Shown here: positions 24,334-53,054 of the stretch, piece after piece
Numbering within the stretch: the first letter of the stretch is position 1
How the letters are laid out: every line of letters starts with the position of its first letter
DNA from: Caldifarciminota bacterium
GTDB lineage: Bacteria > Hydrothermota > Hydrothermia > LBFQ01
Length of the DNA: 64,000 nucleotides
Assembly (NCBI GenBank): GCA_027003075.1
Contig: JALWYV010000016.1
Coordinates: 1 to 64,000 of the forward strand
Direction: 5' to 3'
Notes under the pieces: generated by a model
Database searches by the model: none
Seen by the model: only the letters and a program-made list of their open reading frames with translations
Told to the model about the DNA's origin: nothing
Position numbers and translations under genes: made by a program

Positions 24334-24906
24334 CTATCCCGATTTTCCGTCCGCGTACTCCCTCTGGGCCACGAGTTTGGCGTGGCGTTCTATGAGTTTC
24401 AGCGACATACCCGTGGATGCACTCACGGCCTCAAGGTAGGTGTACATGTAACCGGCCGCTATTATCGTGGCTATGGCATCTGTAACGTGTTTGAATGCCA
24501 TATATATCTCGGCAGCCTCATCCGGAGGAAACTCCTCCTTAACTTTCATAAGGAAAGCGTTTTGAACGAAGGCCATGGCAGACAGCATAAATTCGTTGGG
24601 TATGCCCCGAACGACGTGGACGAGTCCCACCTTCCTGAACTGCCACTCCCAGAAAGTGTCGTCGTACTCGCCGCTTACGACCTTCCTATACCAGAACTTC
24701 AATCCTTCCTCTCTCTCCGGACGCTCCCCTTCGCCGAATATGGAGGCCGTAGGACCATAGGAGAAGAGGCGGTCGTAGAAAGCCTTTGCAAAGAACTCAT
24801 CCCACTCCCGAAGTTTGTCGGCGTACTTTCTCAGGACCTCGGCGTGAGGTTCTATAGGACCAGCGATAGATTCAAAATCTCTGAGGATTTCCGTGTGAGT
24901 CCTCAT
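24334..24906 (-). CDS. protoglobin-domain heme protein (probable gas sensor)
   Basis: 190 residues, essentially a single protoglobin domain. The region F-W-Y-R-K-V-V-S-G-E-Y-D-D-T-F-W (about 71-86) and the following V-G-L-V-H-V-V-R-G-I-P-N (94-104) match the protoglobin/globin-coupled-sensor core, with H97 as the likely proximal heme ligand. The rest is all helical, as the fold requires. There is no attached kinase, methyl-accepting or cyclase domain. It is the last gene of a three-gene operon, 2 nt beyond the Roadblock gene, with a GGAGG site before its ATG. Context suggests it reports O2, NO or CO to the Roadblock/GTPase pair; that link is inference. Confidence 0.72.
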   Translation of the reverse strand: MRTHTEILRDFESIAGPIEPHAEVLRKYADKLREWDEFFAKAFYDRLFSYGPTASIFGEGERPEREEGLKFWYRKVVSGEYDDTFWEWQFRKVGLVHVVRGIPNEFMLSAMAFVQNAFLMKVKEEFPPDEAAEIYMAFKHVTDAIATIIAAGYMYTYLEAVSASTGMSLKLIERHAKLVAQREYADGKSG

Positions 24907-24908
24907 AT

Positions 24909-25298
24909 TTATCCTCCGGGGTTCAGGGTATTTTTAAACTCCTCCATCAGGACGGGGAGCATCTGCCTTATCTTGAGTAGCACGAAACCGGCGGTTACGT
25001 CCTTGGCAGTAACGACGCCGAGTGCGGCTATATCTTCCAGGCGGTATACGAACATCCTTCCCATCTCGGCAGTTATTAGTATTTCCTCCGGTGATCCCAT
25101 GTCCATACTCTCAGTTGAGCGACGGGCAAGGCTGGCAAGGCTCGCTATAACCGCCGCCTGTTTGTCTATCTCCATCTGATCGACGCTTCCCCGAAAGGCG
25201 TACGAGACAGGAAAACCATCCGTGGTAACCAGTATTACGCCATGAACTTCCGGCGTGCGGTGTACCAGATCCTCAAGAAGTGCCTTTATGCTATCCAT
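24909..25298 (-). CDS. Roadblock/LC7 domain protein (MglB-like)
   Basis: 129 residues spanning one Roadblock/LC7 domain: an N-terminal helix (L-L-E-D-L-V-H-R-T-P-E-V-H-G), then V-I-L-V-T-T-D-G-F-P-V-S-Y, a helix (A-A-V-I-A-S-L-A-S-L-A), and strands I-L-I-T-A-E-M-G-R-M-F-V-Y. Bacterial family members such as MglB act as partners or GAPs for small Ras-like GTPases. Here the partner is almost certainly the GTPase fusion encoded 11 nt upstream in the same operon. An AAGGAGG site precedes the ATG. Confidence 0.88.
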   Translation of the reverse strand: MDSIKALLEDLVHRTPEVHGVILVTTDGFPVSYAFRGSVDQMEIDKQAAVIASLASLARRSTESMDMGSPEEILITAEMGRMFVYRLEDIAALGVVTAKDVTAGFVLLKIRQMLPVLMEEFKNTLNPGG

Positions 25299-25309
25299 AC
25301 GTTACCTCC

Positions 25310-26377
25310 TTATATCGGTACTAACATGTTTATAAGAACCGAGAGCAACCTTTTTGCGCTTTCCCGATCCGTTGCGTTAACCTCTATAACAATATCCTCC
25401 GGGACTCCCAGTTTCATGGCAATATCCTTCAGGGATAGGCTGTTATCCAGATCACGCTTTGTAACGCCCACGATAAACGGGACATCGTACTTTTCCCTGA
25501 AGGTGCTGAGCATCCTCGCAGCCTCCTCCAGTCTATCGGGATCGCTGCCGTCAACGAGGAATATGTACCCGGATGCTCCCTTCATCAACTCATCCCACAT
25601 GAACGAGAAACGACTCTGCCCCGGAGTTCCGAACAAGTGGACGAGTGTACCCTTTAACTCCACTATGCCCAGATCCATTGCTATAGTAGTTGTAGGTTTA
25701 CCTATATCCACGCTGCTCCTCTCATCCGTATTCACCGGAAGAACGGTGGAAAGGGTCTTAACCATAGTAGTTTTACCTGCGCCCACAAGTCCGGTTATAA
25801 CTACCTTTAACCTGCTCACTTCTTTCTCCTTTGGTTTAACGTATCCCTCAATTTCCATGAGGGTAAGGTAATTCCTGACCATACTTAAACTCAGGCCAGT
25901 TACTTCGCTTATTCTACGGCTGCTTGCACCTTTTAAAAGGAGGGATCGGGAAGTTTCTATAAACTCCCGTAAATACTCCGGTACAATATTCGCGTCTATA
26001 GTGTGATTAACCAGTACGTACTCCACGTCAGGGGAAACTATCTCTACCGGATTTATTTGCTCTTCTTTTTCATCCTTCTCTTCCTTAAAAGCGTCAAAAC
26101 CGAATACGAAGGTGATAAGGTCTATATCTACGTCCCTGATATCGTGGCTCCCGGAAAAGTACTTAAACTCCCCCTCATTTATCCCGCTTAGGATATGGTA
26201 CATGAGTCTGGCAACAAACACCGGTACACCGTTCAGATGTATACCGGTGATACTATTTCTCCGTAGATATATCCTCACCTCCCCTCCCGCGAAGTCTATC
26301 ACAATTATCCCCTCCTTATCCCCCACTCTCTGGAGGAAGCCCATTAGATCTATATCTTTTAACGCTCCATGGAGCAT
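25310..26377 (-). CDS. DUF4388-like / winged-helix / small GTPase fusion
   Basis: 355 residues in three parts. Residues 1-100 resemble DUF4388 (PatA-like N-terminal domain), beginning L-H-G-A-L-K-D-I-D-L-M-G-F-L. Residues about 130-185 look like a helix-turn-helix (I-S-E-V-T-G-L-S-L-S-M-V-R-N-Y-L). Residues 188-355 are a Ras-like GTPase of the MglA/Gtr-like type: Walker A G-L-V-G-A-G-K-T-T (196-204), switch I P-T-T-T-I-A-M-D (228-235), F-G-T-P-G-Q (249-254) and the base-recognition T-K-R-D (306-309). TACAAT near 26399-26404 and an AGGGAGG site give it a short conventional leader. It leads the operon with the Roadblock and protoglobin genes. Confidence 0.85.
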   Translation of the reverse strand: MLHGALKDIDLMGFLQRVGDKEGIIVIDFAGGEVRIYLRRNSITGIHLNGVPVFVARLMYHILSGINEGEFKYFSGSHDIRDVDIDLITFVFGFDAFKEEKDEKEEQINPVEIVSPDVEYVLVNHTIDANIVPEYLREFIETSRSLLLKGASSRRISEVTGLSLSMVRNYLTLMEIEGYVKPKEKEVSRLKVVITGLVGAGKTTMVKTLSTVLPVNTDERSSVDIGKPTTTIAMDLGIVELKGTLVHLFGTPGQSRFSFMWDELMKGASGYIFLVDGSDPDRLEEAARMLSTFREKYDVPFIVGVTKRDLDNSLSLKDIAMKLGVPEDIVIEVNATDRESAKRLLSVLINMLVPI

Positions 26378-26618
26378 TTTTAACCTCCCTTGCCATCAAA
26401 AATTGTACAGGGGATCATACTCATTTGCAACACATATTTATAACCCAACAAAATCTGGTTAAAATTCCAGAACCCTGCACAATTTCATTAAAACAGTTTA
26501 ATAACCCAATTTTTACAATATTTTAGCGTTAAATTTTTTACATGGTCAAAAATTTGCCTCTCGGATGAAAGTCCCATCGGTTGCCTCCAACGTGCCGTAA
26601 GCCTTAAAATATAACCTC
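26378..26618 (+). promoter_or_regulatory. AT-rich divergent promoter region
   Basis: 241 bases without a gene, between the GTPase operon (left) and the PBP4-like gene (right). About 26430-26580 is far richer in A/T than the rest of the window. A minus-strand TACAAT (near 26399-26404) and a plus-strand TAAAAT (26605-26610) mark the two promoters. I found no clear inverted repeat that would identify an operator. Confidence 0.5.
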
Positions 26619-27785
26619 GTGTTTTTGATACTGGGGTACTTCTCCGAAGTGTGGTTGAGGGAAGGGACGTGCGAACCTGTAAGGCTACGCAACGAGACCG
26701 AGTACGTCGTTCCCGCTTCAACCCTTAAGTCAATATGGGCGGTGGTTTTGCTCAACGAACTGGGGGCGAATTACCGTATTCCCACTTATGTGGCAACGAA
26801 GGGCAACGCTCTCGTCCTCCGTTTCACGGGGGACCCGACCTTGTCCTTCAGGGAACTGGACTCTATAGTATCCGCGAAAGTTTCCCGGATGAGGGGGAAA
26901 AGCGTGTACGTCCTCATATCCTTTCCCCCATGGGGAGACAGGTACGGTTACGGCTGGGCATGGGACGATATAAAGTTTCGCAGGGTTTCCCCCATTACGA
27001 CGGTATCCATAAACGGCGGGGTGGTCAGATCCGATACCCTCCTCGGCATAAGGGTAGACACGTCCCTCGCTGTGGACTCGGTGATATTTCTGGATACCGT
27101 CGCCTTTATACCGAGGAAAGTTTACAGATATTCCGATCCCCTGTCCTTCGTGAAGTACGTGGTTAGAAGGGCGATTCTCAAAGCAGAGAAGAGGCCCAGA
27201 ATAGAGGTGCAGGAGAGCAGGGCGTTCTCCTTTAAGGGCCTGAAGGTTGACACCGTTTACAGCCCTCCCCTTAAGAGCATGCTCCGTCCTATTCTGACGT
27301 ACAGCATAAACTTCTCAATGGACATGGTGGTGGCCCACTACTCCGGCGGTATAACTAAGGCCGGTAGGTACCTGAGGAGGTTCATGGGGAACCTCGGTAT
27401 GGACACCACGGCGTACGTGTTTGACGGATCCGGTTTATCCCGTTATAACCTCATAAGGGCTATAGATGCGGTGTACCTTGTATGTGCGGGTACGAGGGGA
27501 ATAGAGGATGTGGTTAAAGAGGTCCTACCCTCTCCGGGAAGGGGTACCCTGAAGAGGAGACTTGTGGAGTTCAGCGAGATGGTCCACGCGAAAACAGGTA
27601 CGCTATTCGGCGTCTCCGCCCTGCTCGGTTTCTATACCGGGTGCAACGACCGGTACGTCTTTGGCATATACGTCCAGAACTCCCCGATAACACGCCATTC
27701 CCGGGACTTTATAGACTCCCTGGTAGTGTGGAGTAGTGGCGGAAAAGACTGTTTAACCGTAAAAAAGGAGGAAAGTAAGAGATGA
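26619..27785 (+). CDS. dacB: D-alanyl-D-alanine carboxypeptidase/endopeptidase, PBP4 (S13) family
   Basis: 388 residues. Penicillin-binding motifs are in order: A-S-T-L-K (SxxK nucleophile, near 33-37), D-G-S-G-L-S-R-Y-N (SxN-type, near 270) and H-A-K-T-G-T-L (KTG, near 325). The enzyme trims or cleaves peptidoglycan peptides in the periplasm. It is shorter than classical PBP4 (about 450-480) and seems to have reduced insert domains. The GTG at 26619 is supported by TAAAAT at 26605-26610, 8 nt upstream; the resulting M-F-L-I-L-G-Y-F-S is a very short signal. It overlaps the DUF3108 gene by 4 nt. Confidence 0.88.
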   Translation: MFLILGYFSEVWLREGTCEPVRLRNETEYVVPASTLKSIWAVVLLNELGANYRIPTYVATKGNALVLRFTGDPTLSFRELDSIVSAKVSRMRGKSVYVLISFPPWGDRYGYGWAWDDIKFRRVSPITTVSINGGVVRSDTLLGIRVDTSLAVDSVIFLDTVAFIPRKVYRYSDPLSFVKYVVRRAILKAEKRPRIEVQESRAFSFKGLKVDTVYSPPLKSMLRPILTYSINFSMDMVVAHYSGGITKAGRYLRRFMGNLGMDTTAYVFDGSGLSRYNLIRAIDAVYLVCAGTRGIEDVVKEVLPSPGRGTLKRRLVEFSEMVHAKTGTLFGVSALLGFYTGCNDRYVFGIYVQNSPITRHSRDFIDSLVVWSSGGKDCLTVKKEESKR

Positions 27786-28441
27786 TAGCACCACTTTTAT
27801 TCCTATCAAGACCGGAGACTCTGGTATTTGAGGCCAGATTCGGCCCGTTCAAGGCCGGCAGGCTATACCTTATAAGCTCCGGTAAAACCACGTGGAAAGG
27901 GAAATCCGCCTACAGGTTCAAACTTATAGCCGACGGCGGTGTCCCTTTCTATCCCATAAAGGATACGATGCTCAGCATAACCGATACCTCCCTCAAACCC
28001 CTGTTGTACAAGAAGGTTCAACACGAGGGGAACTATCACTACTGGGGATGGATAGCCTACGACCACTACATCGGCTCGGCCCTCTACAGTAACGGCAGGA
28101 GAGTTAAGATACCGAAGGGGAGCCTTGACCCCCTGAGCCTCGTATACGTAGCCCGAACCCTTGACTTTGATAAACGGAAGGAGTACGCCTTCCCATACCA
28201 CGTGGACTACATAACGGAGACGGTCAGGATACGGCTGGTGGGCAGGGAGAAGGTAAAGACGCCTCTCGGCACGTACGACTGCTGGGTCGTGAAGCCCATA
28301 ATGAAATCGGGAAAAAACGTATTCGGCGGCAAGGGAGGAATGCGAATATGGATAGACCGAAAGACCCGTACACCAGTTAAGGTTGAGGCGAAGATGATCT
28401 TCGGTAAGGCTGTTGGAGTGTTGGTGAGGAAAGTGCCTTAG
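27782..28441 (+). CDS. DUF3108 domain protein
   Basis: 219 residues. The pattern F-E-A-R-F-G-P-F-K-A-G-R-L at the start, repeated strands, and G-T-Y-D-C-W-V-V-K-P near the end fit DUF3108, a periplasmic beta-rich family of unknown function common in diderm bacteria. The N-terminus M-I-A-P-L-L-F-L-S is a minimal signal. It overlaps the PBP4-like gene by 4 nt, so an envelope role next to peptidoglycan turnover is plausible. Confidence 0.72.
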   Translation: MIAPLLFLSRPETLVFEARFGPFKAGRLYLISSGKTTWKGKSAYRFKLIADGGVPFYPIKDTMLSITDTSLKPLLYKKVQHEGNYHYWGWIAYDHYIGSALYSNGRRVKIPKGSLDPLSLVYVARTLDFDKRKEYAFPYHVDYITETVRIRLVGREKVKTPLGTYDCWVVKPIMKSGKNVFGGKGGMRIWIDRKTRTPVKVEAKMIFGKAVGVLVRKVP

Positions 28442-28839
28442 GAATGCTCTTCAACTATACCCTTTGCCCACTCGTAGACCTTGCCCGCTACCTCGTAGGC
28501 CTCTTCGTACTCCTCTTCGGAAACGGGGACGTAGTCGTCAGGATACCGGGTCGTGAAAGCGTATCGGGTCAGCGAAGGGGAGTTCAGAACATCCGGAGGC
28601 ATCGGTACATCCTCCTCTATCAGCACATCCACAAGATGCCCTATATCGTGGGTCTTAAATTTCCCAACCTTACCCTCCAGTCCAAGGATTATGACAACGG
28701 CCTTCAGAGACTTCTCCACGGCCTGCTGGAGCAGGAAAACTGCTATCCTACGATAACCCTTCTCCTCCATCACGGTGGCAGCCTCAAGGTCCTCCTTAGT
28801 GAACTGCAGCCACCTCCGGGCGTCTTCCTTCCTTCTCAT
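28438..28839 (-). CDS. HEPN-domain protein of a MNT-HEPN pair
   Basis: 133 residues, all helical. D-L-E-A-A-T-V-M and F-L-L-Q-Q-A-V-E-K-S-L-K-A are the HEPN helix signature, with T-R-Y-P-D-D-Y near 97-103. The HepT-type R-x4-H-x-Y ribonuclease motif is not evident, so a HepT-like toxin role is uncertain. It starts 44 nt inside the upstream nucleotidyltransferase gene, and such pairs often act as toxin-antitoxin modules. Its end overlaps the convergent DUF3108 gene by 4 nt. Confidence 0.82.
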   Translation of the reverse strand: MRRKEDARRWLQFTKEDLEAATVMEEKGYRRIAVFLLQQAVEKSLKAVVIILGLEGKVGKFKTHDIGHLVDVLIEEDVPMPPDVLNSPSLTRYAFTTRYPDDYVPVSEEEYEEAYEVAGKVYEWAKGIVEEHS

Positions 28840-29182
28840 ATATCACTACCCCCTCCCTGTGGGCATCGTAATATACCAGATAGGGAACGTCCTTCAACTC
28901 TTCAATCTTATCAGGCGACTGAACTATCACGTCCACGACCGCGTCCCTGTATATCCTCGCCTTGAGGAACTCAACGAGCAGTTTTCCTTCAACTCTCCTT
29001 CTATCCTCCGGCTTAATCCCCTCCTTAAGGACGAGGATATCGTAATCGCTGCCCTCTGTGTAGTCTCCCCTCGCCCTTGAGCCAAAGAGAACGATCCTGT
29101 CGGGGTCTATCTCCTTAACGATGACCTCAACTATCCGACGGAGGATCGAATCCTTCTCAAGTAAATCTCTACCATCTCTCAC
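28796..29182 (-). CDS. MNT-type minimal nucleotidyltransferase
   Basis: 128 residues with the pol-beta-fold motif G-S-R-A-R-G-D-Y-T-E-G-S-D-Y-D (G-S-x10-D-x-D, near 34-48) and a third acidic residue in A-V-V-D-V-I-V. MntA-type proteins neutralise HEPN toxins by adding AMP units to a Tyr. The start is GTG at 29182 with TAGAAT at 29190-29195, 7 nt upstream. The HEPN gene follows with a 44 nt overlap, giving MNT-then-HEPN order. Confidence 0.85.
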   Translation of the reverse strand: MRDGRDLLEKDSILRRIVEVIVKEIDPDRIVLFGSRARGDYTEGSDYDILVLKEGIKPEDRRRVEGKLLVEFLKARIYRDAVVDVIVQSPDKIEELKDVPYLVYYDAHREGVVIYEKEGRRPEVAAVH

Positions 29183-52103: not shown

Positions 52104-53054
52104 TTATATCATCTCGGTTTCCTTTGCAGCAGCCTCGCGTATATCGTCAAGGGCCTTGCGCACCTTCATGAAGATCAAGCCGGTGTTGGCGTCCTTGTCG
52201 GTCAGTATGCCCATCACGAGGTCACCGAGCGGGTAGAGGAATATTTTCCCTTTATCGGCCACTATAAGGATCTCGGACGTGTTTCCGAGGTCTGCGTCCC
52301 GCACGGAGCTCTCAGAAAGCGCTACGATGGCCGATGAGATAGCCGCCTGGATCTCGGGGTCGTAATTATAGGATGAGTAGTACGCTATGGGAAGGCCGTC
52401 CGGTGTTGCCACAACCACCCCGATCGTATCGGGGGATTCCTCAACGAGCTTCTTTAAAAGTTCGTGCAGCTTGCTCTGCATATCGTACCTCCTTTCTGGT
52501 TGTTGTCTTACCTCCAGAAAGTCTGGATATTCCTTCAGGGTCACCAGAACCATGTACCTTACAAAATCTCCGTTGAAACACGACGAGAGTGGAACTCTCT
52601 TTATGGGTACCCACATTCCGACACCGAACCTTTTCGCAATGTACTTTATGAACTTTCCGGGTAGATCGGATATATTTTCCGGTATTCCCCGTACCCTGAT
52701 GAAGAGATCATCCGAAGGTAGCTCATCCCCAAAGTACACCATCTCGTCCAGAATCGTGGCAACGTAAAGCACAAGCAAATCTAACGGAAGTATAGCCTCG
52801 CTTACCTTGACCTCCTCGTTAATGAACTCTATAAACGCTTCCTCCCTGGTCAGAATGCTGGACATCAGACCAACGATATCAACGGGGTCGTCAATTGTTT
52901 CTCCGTTTAAACTTGCCTCAACTATGTACCCGGATCTCACCCCTATATCAAGGGTACATTCGGAGGATGATATACGGAACTTTCCACTCTCCCGCGGAGC
53001 AAGGAAGATATCAAACATCTCAGATGCGTTGAAAGTTCTTCCTCCGGAACTCAT
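52104..53054 (-). CDS. DUF4388-like N-terminus fused to Roadblock/LC7 domain
   Basis: 316 residues. Residues 1-110 resemble the DUF4388-like start of the GTPase fusion at 25.3-26.4 kb (short strands, E-A-S-L-N-G-E near 43-49). A middle part (about 110-185) is unassigned. Residues 192-310 are a Roadblock domain: L-H-E-L-L-K-K-L-V-E-E-S-P-D-T-I-G-V-V-V-A-T-P-D-G-L-P-I-A-Y in outline, then I-L-I-V-A-D-K-G-K-I-F-L-Y. There is no GTPase part, so it may pair with a GTPase encoded elsewhere, possibly the one at 25.3 kb. TATAAT at 53064-53069 ends 9 nt before the ATG. Confidence 0.75.
   Translation of the reverse strand: MSSGGRTFNASEMFDIFLAPRESGKFRISSSECTLDIGVRSGYIVEASLNGETIDDPVDIVGLMSSILTREEAFIEFINEEVKVSEAILPLDLLVLYVATILDEMVYFGDELPSDDLFIRVRGIPENISDLPGKFIKYIAKRFGVGMWVPIKRVPLSSCFNGDFVRYMVLVTLKEYPDFLEVRQQPERRYDMQSKLHELLKKLVEESPDTIGVVVATPDGLPIAYYSSYNYDPEIQAAISSAIVALSESSVRDADLGNTSEILIVADKGKIFLYPLGDLVMGILTDKDANTGLIFMKVRKALDDIREAAAKETEMI

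Follow-up and report, generated by a model that had tools for sequence, protein, structure and literature searches.

A free-standing protoglobin encoded beside Roadblock and small-GTPase genes in a WOR-3 genus and in Thermus: a candidate gas-responsive switch

Introduction

The signals that control bacterial Roadblock/GTPase switches are largely an open question. Several described systems come close to the operon analyzed here, which combines a protoglobin, a Roadblock/LC7 protein, and a small GTPase joined to a DUF4388-like region; we take DUF4388 to be a PATAN-type domain. First, the operon resembles the MglA/MglB modules of Groups 2–5 (Wuichet & Sogaard-Andersen 2014, PMC4316618), which pair a GTPase carrying GTPGQ in G3 with a Roadblock partner carrying an Asp-Gly pair, next to a DUF4388 protein; Group 1 has TVPGQ instead. 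Neighborhoods of GTPase, Roadblock, and PATAN genes are thus already known, although the accessible text of that paper names no heme or globin input. Second, the actinobacterial conservon (CvnA–D) has a similar four-part logic, consisting of a sensor (the histidine-kinase-like CvnA), a Roadblock protein, a small accessory protein (CvnC, DUF742), and a GTPase. Third, HGbRL, found only in Methylacidiphilum, is a globin of the flavohemoglobin/VsHb group fused to a Roadblock/LC7 domain and encoded in an operon with a methyltransferase; its authors proposed that the ligand state of the globin is relayed to the Roadblock domain (PMC4476040). Fourth, globin-coupled sensors such as AfGcHK/NmpU, HemAT, DosC, and Vibrio RsbR share their fold and key residues with the operon globin, but they carry an output domain on the same polypeptide.

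How does the operon compare? Its nearest described counterparts are conservons and HGbRL, which it resembles in logic, and it fails the defining features of both. A CvnB-type Roadblock protein and a CvnD-type GTPase are present, but CvnA and CvnC are missing from the operon and its relatives, which rules out conservon membership. HGbRL is a single fused protein, whereas the globin here is a protoglobin encoded in an operon with a GTPase, and globin and Roadblock protein are on separate genes in every locus seen, which rules out HGbRL membership. The operon differs from the MglA/MglB modules in having a protoglobin gene fixed beside the Roadblock gene and, in two genomes, a GTPase fused to the DUF4388-wHTH region. 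An earlier reading of the sequence alone (the sequence-only reading) knew of no described system with this composition. Searches of the available literature found no paper containing both “protoglobin” and “roadblock,” and a search for globin, MglA, and MglB returned only the HGbRL paper. The statement needs the qualification that a globin–Roadblock fusion (PMC4476040) and, in the accessible text of PMC4316618, GTPase/Roadblock/PATAN neighborhoods had already been described. The protoglobin input is probably the new element, and the MglA/MglB-type GTPase/Roadblock module is already known.

Organization of the operon

The window, i.e., the whole stretch of DNA analyzed, spans 64,000 nt of contig JALWYV010000016.1. 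A re-check against ORFs and Pfam placed the three genes, all on the minus strand, exactly at the coordinates given by the sequence-only reading and supported its gaps and domain names (Table 1). The gap between the GTPase-fusion and Roadblock genes is 11 nt, that between the Roadblock and protoglobin genes is 2 nt, and a GGAGG-type ribosome site precedes each of the three ORFs. A divergent gene lies at 26619, across the intergenic region from the operon; aligning the upstream DNA of the window with that of genome G002 singled out no obvious conserved operator. At 28438–29182 (minus strand), adjacent small genes by eye resemble a HEPN/MNT nucleotidyltransferase pair, possibly a toxin-antitoxin system.

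Table 1. Features of the operon in the window
Feature	Position	Strand	Basis
DUF4388-like/HTH/GTPase fusion, 355 aa	25310..26377	-	ORF list, Pfam/NCBIfam, AlphaFold2 model and Foldseek, alignments
Roadblock/LC7 (MglB/CvnB-type) protein, 129 aa	24909..25298	-	Pfam, PDB relatives, alignments
Single-domain protoglobin, 190 aa	24334..24906	-	Pfam, phmmer/hmmsearch, AlphaFold2 and Foldseek, alignments
Intergenic region 5' of the operon, likely promoter region	26378..26618	-	sequence, alignment with G002

The globin

The 190-aa protein scores 45.7 bits against the Pfam protoglobin family (PF11563; cut-off 25). Its AlphaFold2 model, for which seven sequences of the genus were used, has a pLDDT of 87.5 and a pTM of 0.81, and the best Foldseek matches of this model in the PDB (5ohe, 2w31, and 1or4; TM-score by target about 0.83–0.86) are the sensor domains of the globin-coupled sensors AfGcHK, Geobacter GCS (GsGCS), and B. 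subtilis HemAT. Sequence searches with phmmer and hmmsearch agree with the assignment to the sensor globins. In the alignment to AfGcHK, Tyr44 and His97 of the window protein fall on Tyr45 and His99, which are reported to serve in O2 recognition and as the heme ligand, respectively (PMC8697598). The proximal His97 and the distal (B10) Tyr44 are invariant in all seven globins of the WOR-3 genus, and both residues are retained in the Thermus globins, with the exception of one sequence. The sequence-only reading of this protein as a protoglobin with proximal His97 is thus borne out; fold and key residues together rule out that it is not a globin. From these residues and the model, we infer that the operon globin binds heme and a diatomic gas, most likely O2. 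The protein also has a C-terminal extension (about residues 160–185) with a TGM-x3-L-I-E-R motif that is partly shared with Thermus, and Gly166 and Leu171 are common to all aligned WOR-3 and Thermus globins. This extension may be a docking element.

The GTPase and Roadblock proteins

The 355-aa fusion consists of a DUF4388-like region (about residues 1–120), a helix-turn-helix (about 134–182), and an MglA-type GTPase domain (about 186–355) with the motifs GLVGAGKTT (P-loop), LFGTPGQ (G3), and TKRD (G4). It matches PF00025 (Arf) and PF03029 (ATP_bind_1) above the Pfam cut-off, as well as the NCBIfam small GTP-binding protein model TIGR00231, and the Foldseek matches of its GTPase domain are MglA (3t1q) and the Arf family. 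Its AlphaFold2 model has a beta-rich N-terminal part, then a helix-turn-helix and the GTPase domain; at an overall pTM of 0.49, it does not fix the relative placement of the domains. The DUF4388-like label given to the N-terminus by the sequence-only reading carries a reservation, since the window copy scores 13.8 bits against DUF4388 (PF14332; cut-off 25); the label draws support from orthologues in G004 and G005 (47.7 and 40 bits) and in Thermus (39.4 bits), which are above the cut-off. The Roadblock protein scores 46 bits against PF03259 (Robl_LC7; cut-off 23), and its relatives in the PDB include CvnB5 (3leq).

In the alignments, GTPGQ in G3 is invariant in 12 of 12 GTPase sequences, and the Asp-Gly pair of the Roadblock protein (D27-G28) is likewise invariant. 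By these motifs, the operon GTPase fits MglA Groups 2–5 as far as the accessible text of PMC4316618 defines them, and by exclusion, with a G4 of the form TKxD, it would belong to Group 5. Members of Groups 2–5 are single-domain proteins of ≤240 aa; the fusion protein of the window and G002, at 355 aa, exceeds this size, and the unfused orthologues in G001, G004, and G005 are within it. The genome (G000) also has a separate Group 1-type mglBA pair with TVPGQ (locus L003 1474–2516, contig 62), so the operon GTPase cannot simply be equated with the MglA of this genome. As in Groups 2–5, the operon GTPase has no Arg beside the G2 Thr, with TTT where the genome's own MglA has ERT. By eye, a 429-aa FIST-like protein precedes the Group 1-type pair. 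A second Roadblock protein in the window (316 aa; 52104–53054, minus strand) has no globin alongside; its long N-terminal region has no Pfam match and looks DUF4388-like by eye.

Conservation in the WOR-3 genus

Among 147 genomes of the phylum, the protoglobin is confined to this genus, where it occurs as seven genes in six genomes. All seven adjoin a Roadblock gene, with a 4-nt overlap in five cases and a 2-nt gap in two. The GTPase gene is adjacent in five of the seven loci (the window, G001, G002, G004, and locus C12 of G005); the other two pairs, in G003 and at locus C18 of G005, have no GTPase beside them, and no close homologue of the operon GTPase was found in G003. The fusion noted by the sequence-only reading is present in the window and in G002, whose protein has the same architecture and is 78% identical overall; elsewhere, two genes take its place. 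For example, DUF4388-wHTH is a separate adjacent gene in G004 and G005. No DUF4388 gene was seen beside the GTPase gene at the G001 locus. The tightest unit is therefore Roadblock plus globin, and the DUF4388-GTPase fusion is one arrangement among several. In two order-mates, G008 and G010, the genes for DUF4388-wHTH, GTPase, and Roadblock occur without a globin gene. A scan of genome contigs with the globin alignment reached only the same genus; the peptide patterns it used were probably so specific that even Thermus lay beyond their range. No relatives were found in viral contigs, which argues against viral carriage.

Thermus and Deinococcus plasmids

With the globin as the only query, tblastn against 72,556 plasmids returned four records, all from Thermus, which belongs to another phylum; there was no match outside Thermus even at E = 10. 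The Thermus globins are 36%–40% identical to the window globin over 81% of the query. All four records contain DUF4388, GTPase, and protoglobin genes, and three of the four contain a Roadblock gene; an EAL gene follows in three of the four. T. oshimai and T. thermophilus share the gene order DUF4388, GTPase, Roadblock, protoglobin, with an EAL gene downstream in T. oshimai and a transposase gene downstream in T. thermophilus. The T. brockianus GE-1 operon is longer: IclR-type regulator, DUF4388, GTPase, protoglobin, and a divergent globin-like gene are followed by Roadblock, a second protoglobin, a PAS-GGDEF-EAL protein, and HD-GYP. The divergent globin-like protein (locus L059 10950–11543), annotated as hypothetical, scores 26.3 bits against the Protoglobin family and has Tyr at the position of the proximal His. 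T. brockianus SNM4-1 has kept the GTPase and a globin and has lost the Roadblock gene.

The co-occurrence of globin, Roadblock, and GTPase in related genomes, on which the proposal of the sequence-only reading depended, is thus conserved both in the genus and in Thermus. Chance adjacency is ruled out by the recurrence in Thermus together with the unbroken Roadblock–globin adjacency in the genus. The globins of the two lineages are clearly related, and their Roadblock proteins are far apart. In a GTPase tree, members from WOR-3, Thermus/Deinococcus, and Streptomyces conservons are separate, with limited support inside; outside Deinococcota, the nearest homologues on plasmids are conservon GTPases (about 41%–44% to the Thermus GTPase). 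Deinococcus plasmids carry a trio of DUF4388-like-HTH, GTPase, and Roadblock genes without a globin. Since these plasmids and the globin-free order-mates keep the core module, the globin looks like an input added to a known MglA/MglB-type module.

Proposed mechanism and alternative explanations

What might the operon do? The sensor-globin model and the conserved co-occurrence in the genus and Thermus make a gas-responsive small-GTPase system the best reading, and with its gene set recurring in distant Thermus, the operon is probably a real gas-sensing switch. In somewhat more specific form, we favor, with some confidence, a cassette of input, switch, and output. The free single-domain protoglobin would bind heme and sense a diatomic gas, most likely O2. 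Its heme-ligand state would be passed in trans, by protein contact, to the Roadblock protein encoded by the neighboring gene. The Roadblock protein, presumably an MglB/CvnB-type dimer, would set whether the MglA-type GTPase is in its GTP or GDP state, and this state would be read out by DUF4388-wHTH, fused or encoded by a neighboring gene, to give a transcriptional response. In Thermus, co-encoded GGDEF-EAL or HD-GYP and IclR-type proteins may also read the GTPase state. The mechanism put forward by the sequence-only reading, with heme ligand state acting on GTPase cycling by way of the Roadblock protein, is plausible in this light. Counting against the cassette are the two Roadblock–globin pairs that have no GTPase gene next to them, the T. 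brockianus SNM4-1 plasmid with GTPase and globin but no Roadblock, and the failure to find ferrochelatase in the genus. No EAL match was found in the WOR-3 genus, so the two lineages must differ in output, and a common cyclic-di-GMP output is ruled out for WOR-3. The chances are about even that the operon stands for something broader, namely, a heme gas sensor that, in trans, allosterically controls a switch made of a Ras-like GTPase and a Roadblock protein, the output being DNA binding in WOR-3 or cyclic-di-GMP in Thermus. This would be an oxygen-sensing class present in two phyla and separate from the kinase-, cyclase-, and chemoreceptor-coupled globins.

Could the globin instead perform chemistry, such as NO or O2 scavenging or reactions with peroxide or nitrite, and merely be co-regulated with the GTPase module, with no signaling through the Roadblock protein? 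Elsewhere there are single-domain protoglobins whose role is unclear, and the operon globin is likewise free-standing, consists of a single domain, and conserves the distal Tyr. Nonetheless, its tightest link in all seven loci is to a Roadblock gene rather than to a reductase or detoxification gene, it is found again with Roadblock and GTPase in Thermus, and its closest folds are sensor domains. A role in chemistry is therefore unlikely.

More doubtful still is a heme-free or structural regulatory role, in which the globin would dock on the Roadblock protein or GTPase and respond to a cue other than gas. The accessible text of PMC4476040 cites a precedent, B. subtilis RsbR, whose globin has no heme; the divergent T. 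brockianus globin-like protein has no proximal His; and no ferrochelatase was found in the six genomes of the genus. On the other hand, the invariance of the proximal His and distal Tyr in WOR-3, and their retention in the other Thermus copies, would not be expected of a heme-free protein. Furthermore, heme-copper oxidase genes in five of the six genomes indicate heme use, so the genus plausibly uses heme and meets O2; heme is probably available to it. A search for heme synthesis with the AhbD model gave only radical-SAM matches, all below the cut-off, and HemE was found in one of the six genomes (G003), where it adjoins an AhbD-like radical-SAM gene (contig 121, 45–2181). Either heme is supplied unevenly or incompletely across the genus, or contig 121 is contamination of the metagenome-assembled genome.

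That the Roadblock–globin pair alone is the functional unit, acting on another target while GTPase and DUF4388 form a separate, often neighboring module, would suit the two pairs without an adjacent GTPase and the missing close homologue in G003, yet it is improbable given that the GTPase is adjacent in the other five loci and present in all four Thermus plasmids, that GTPase and Roadblock genes overlap by 8–23 nt in several loci, and that GTPases of this class are well known to partner with Roadblock proteins (PMC4316618, accessible text).

If the gas-responsive switch is real, heme gas sensors would gain small GTPases as a further type of output. The globin is also an unusually tractable input, with a ligand state that can be both set and read by spectroscopy, and gas-dependent control of the GTPase is directly testable in vitro with thermostable proteins, namely, the Thermus orthologues. 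The T. brockianus SNM4-1 plasmid is a natural variant for probing which parts of the operon are needed: a deletion has taken out the Roadblock and globin-like genes that lie between the two globins of GE-1, leaving a hybrid globin (locus L067 8554–9147) whose first third corresponds to GE-1 globin 1 and whose remainder corresponds to globin 2.
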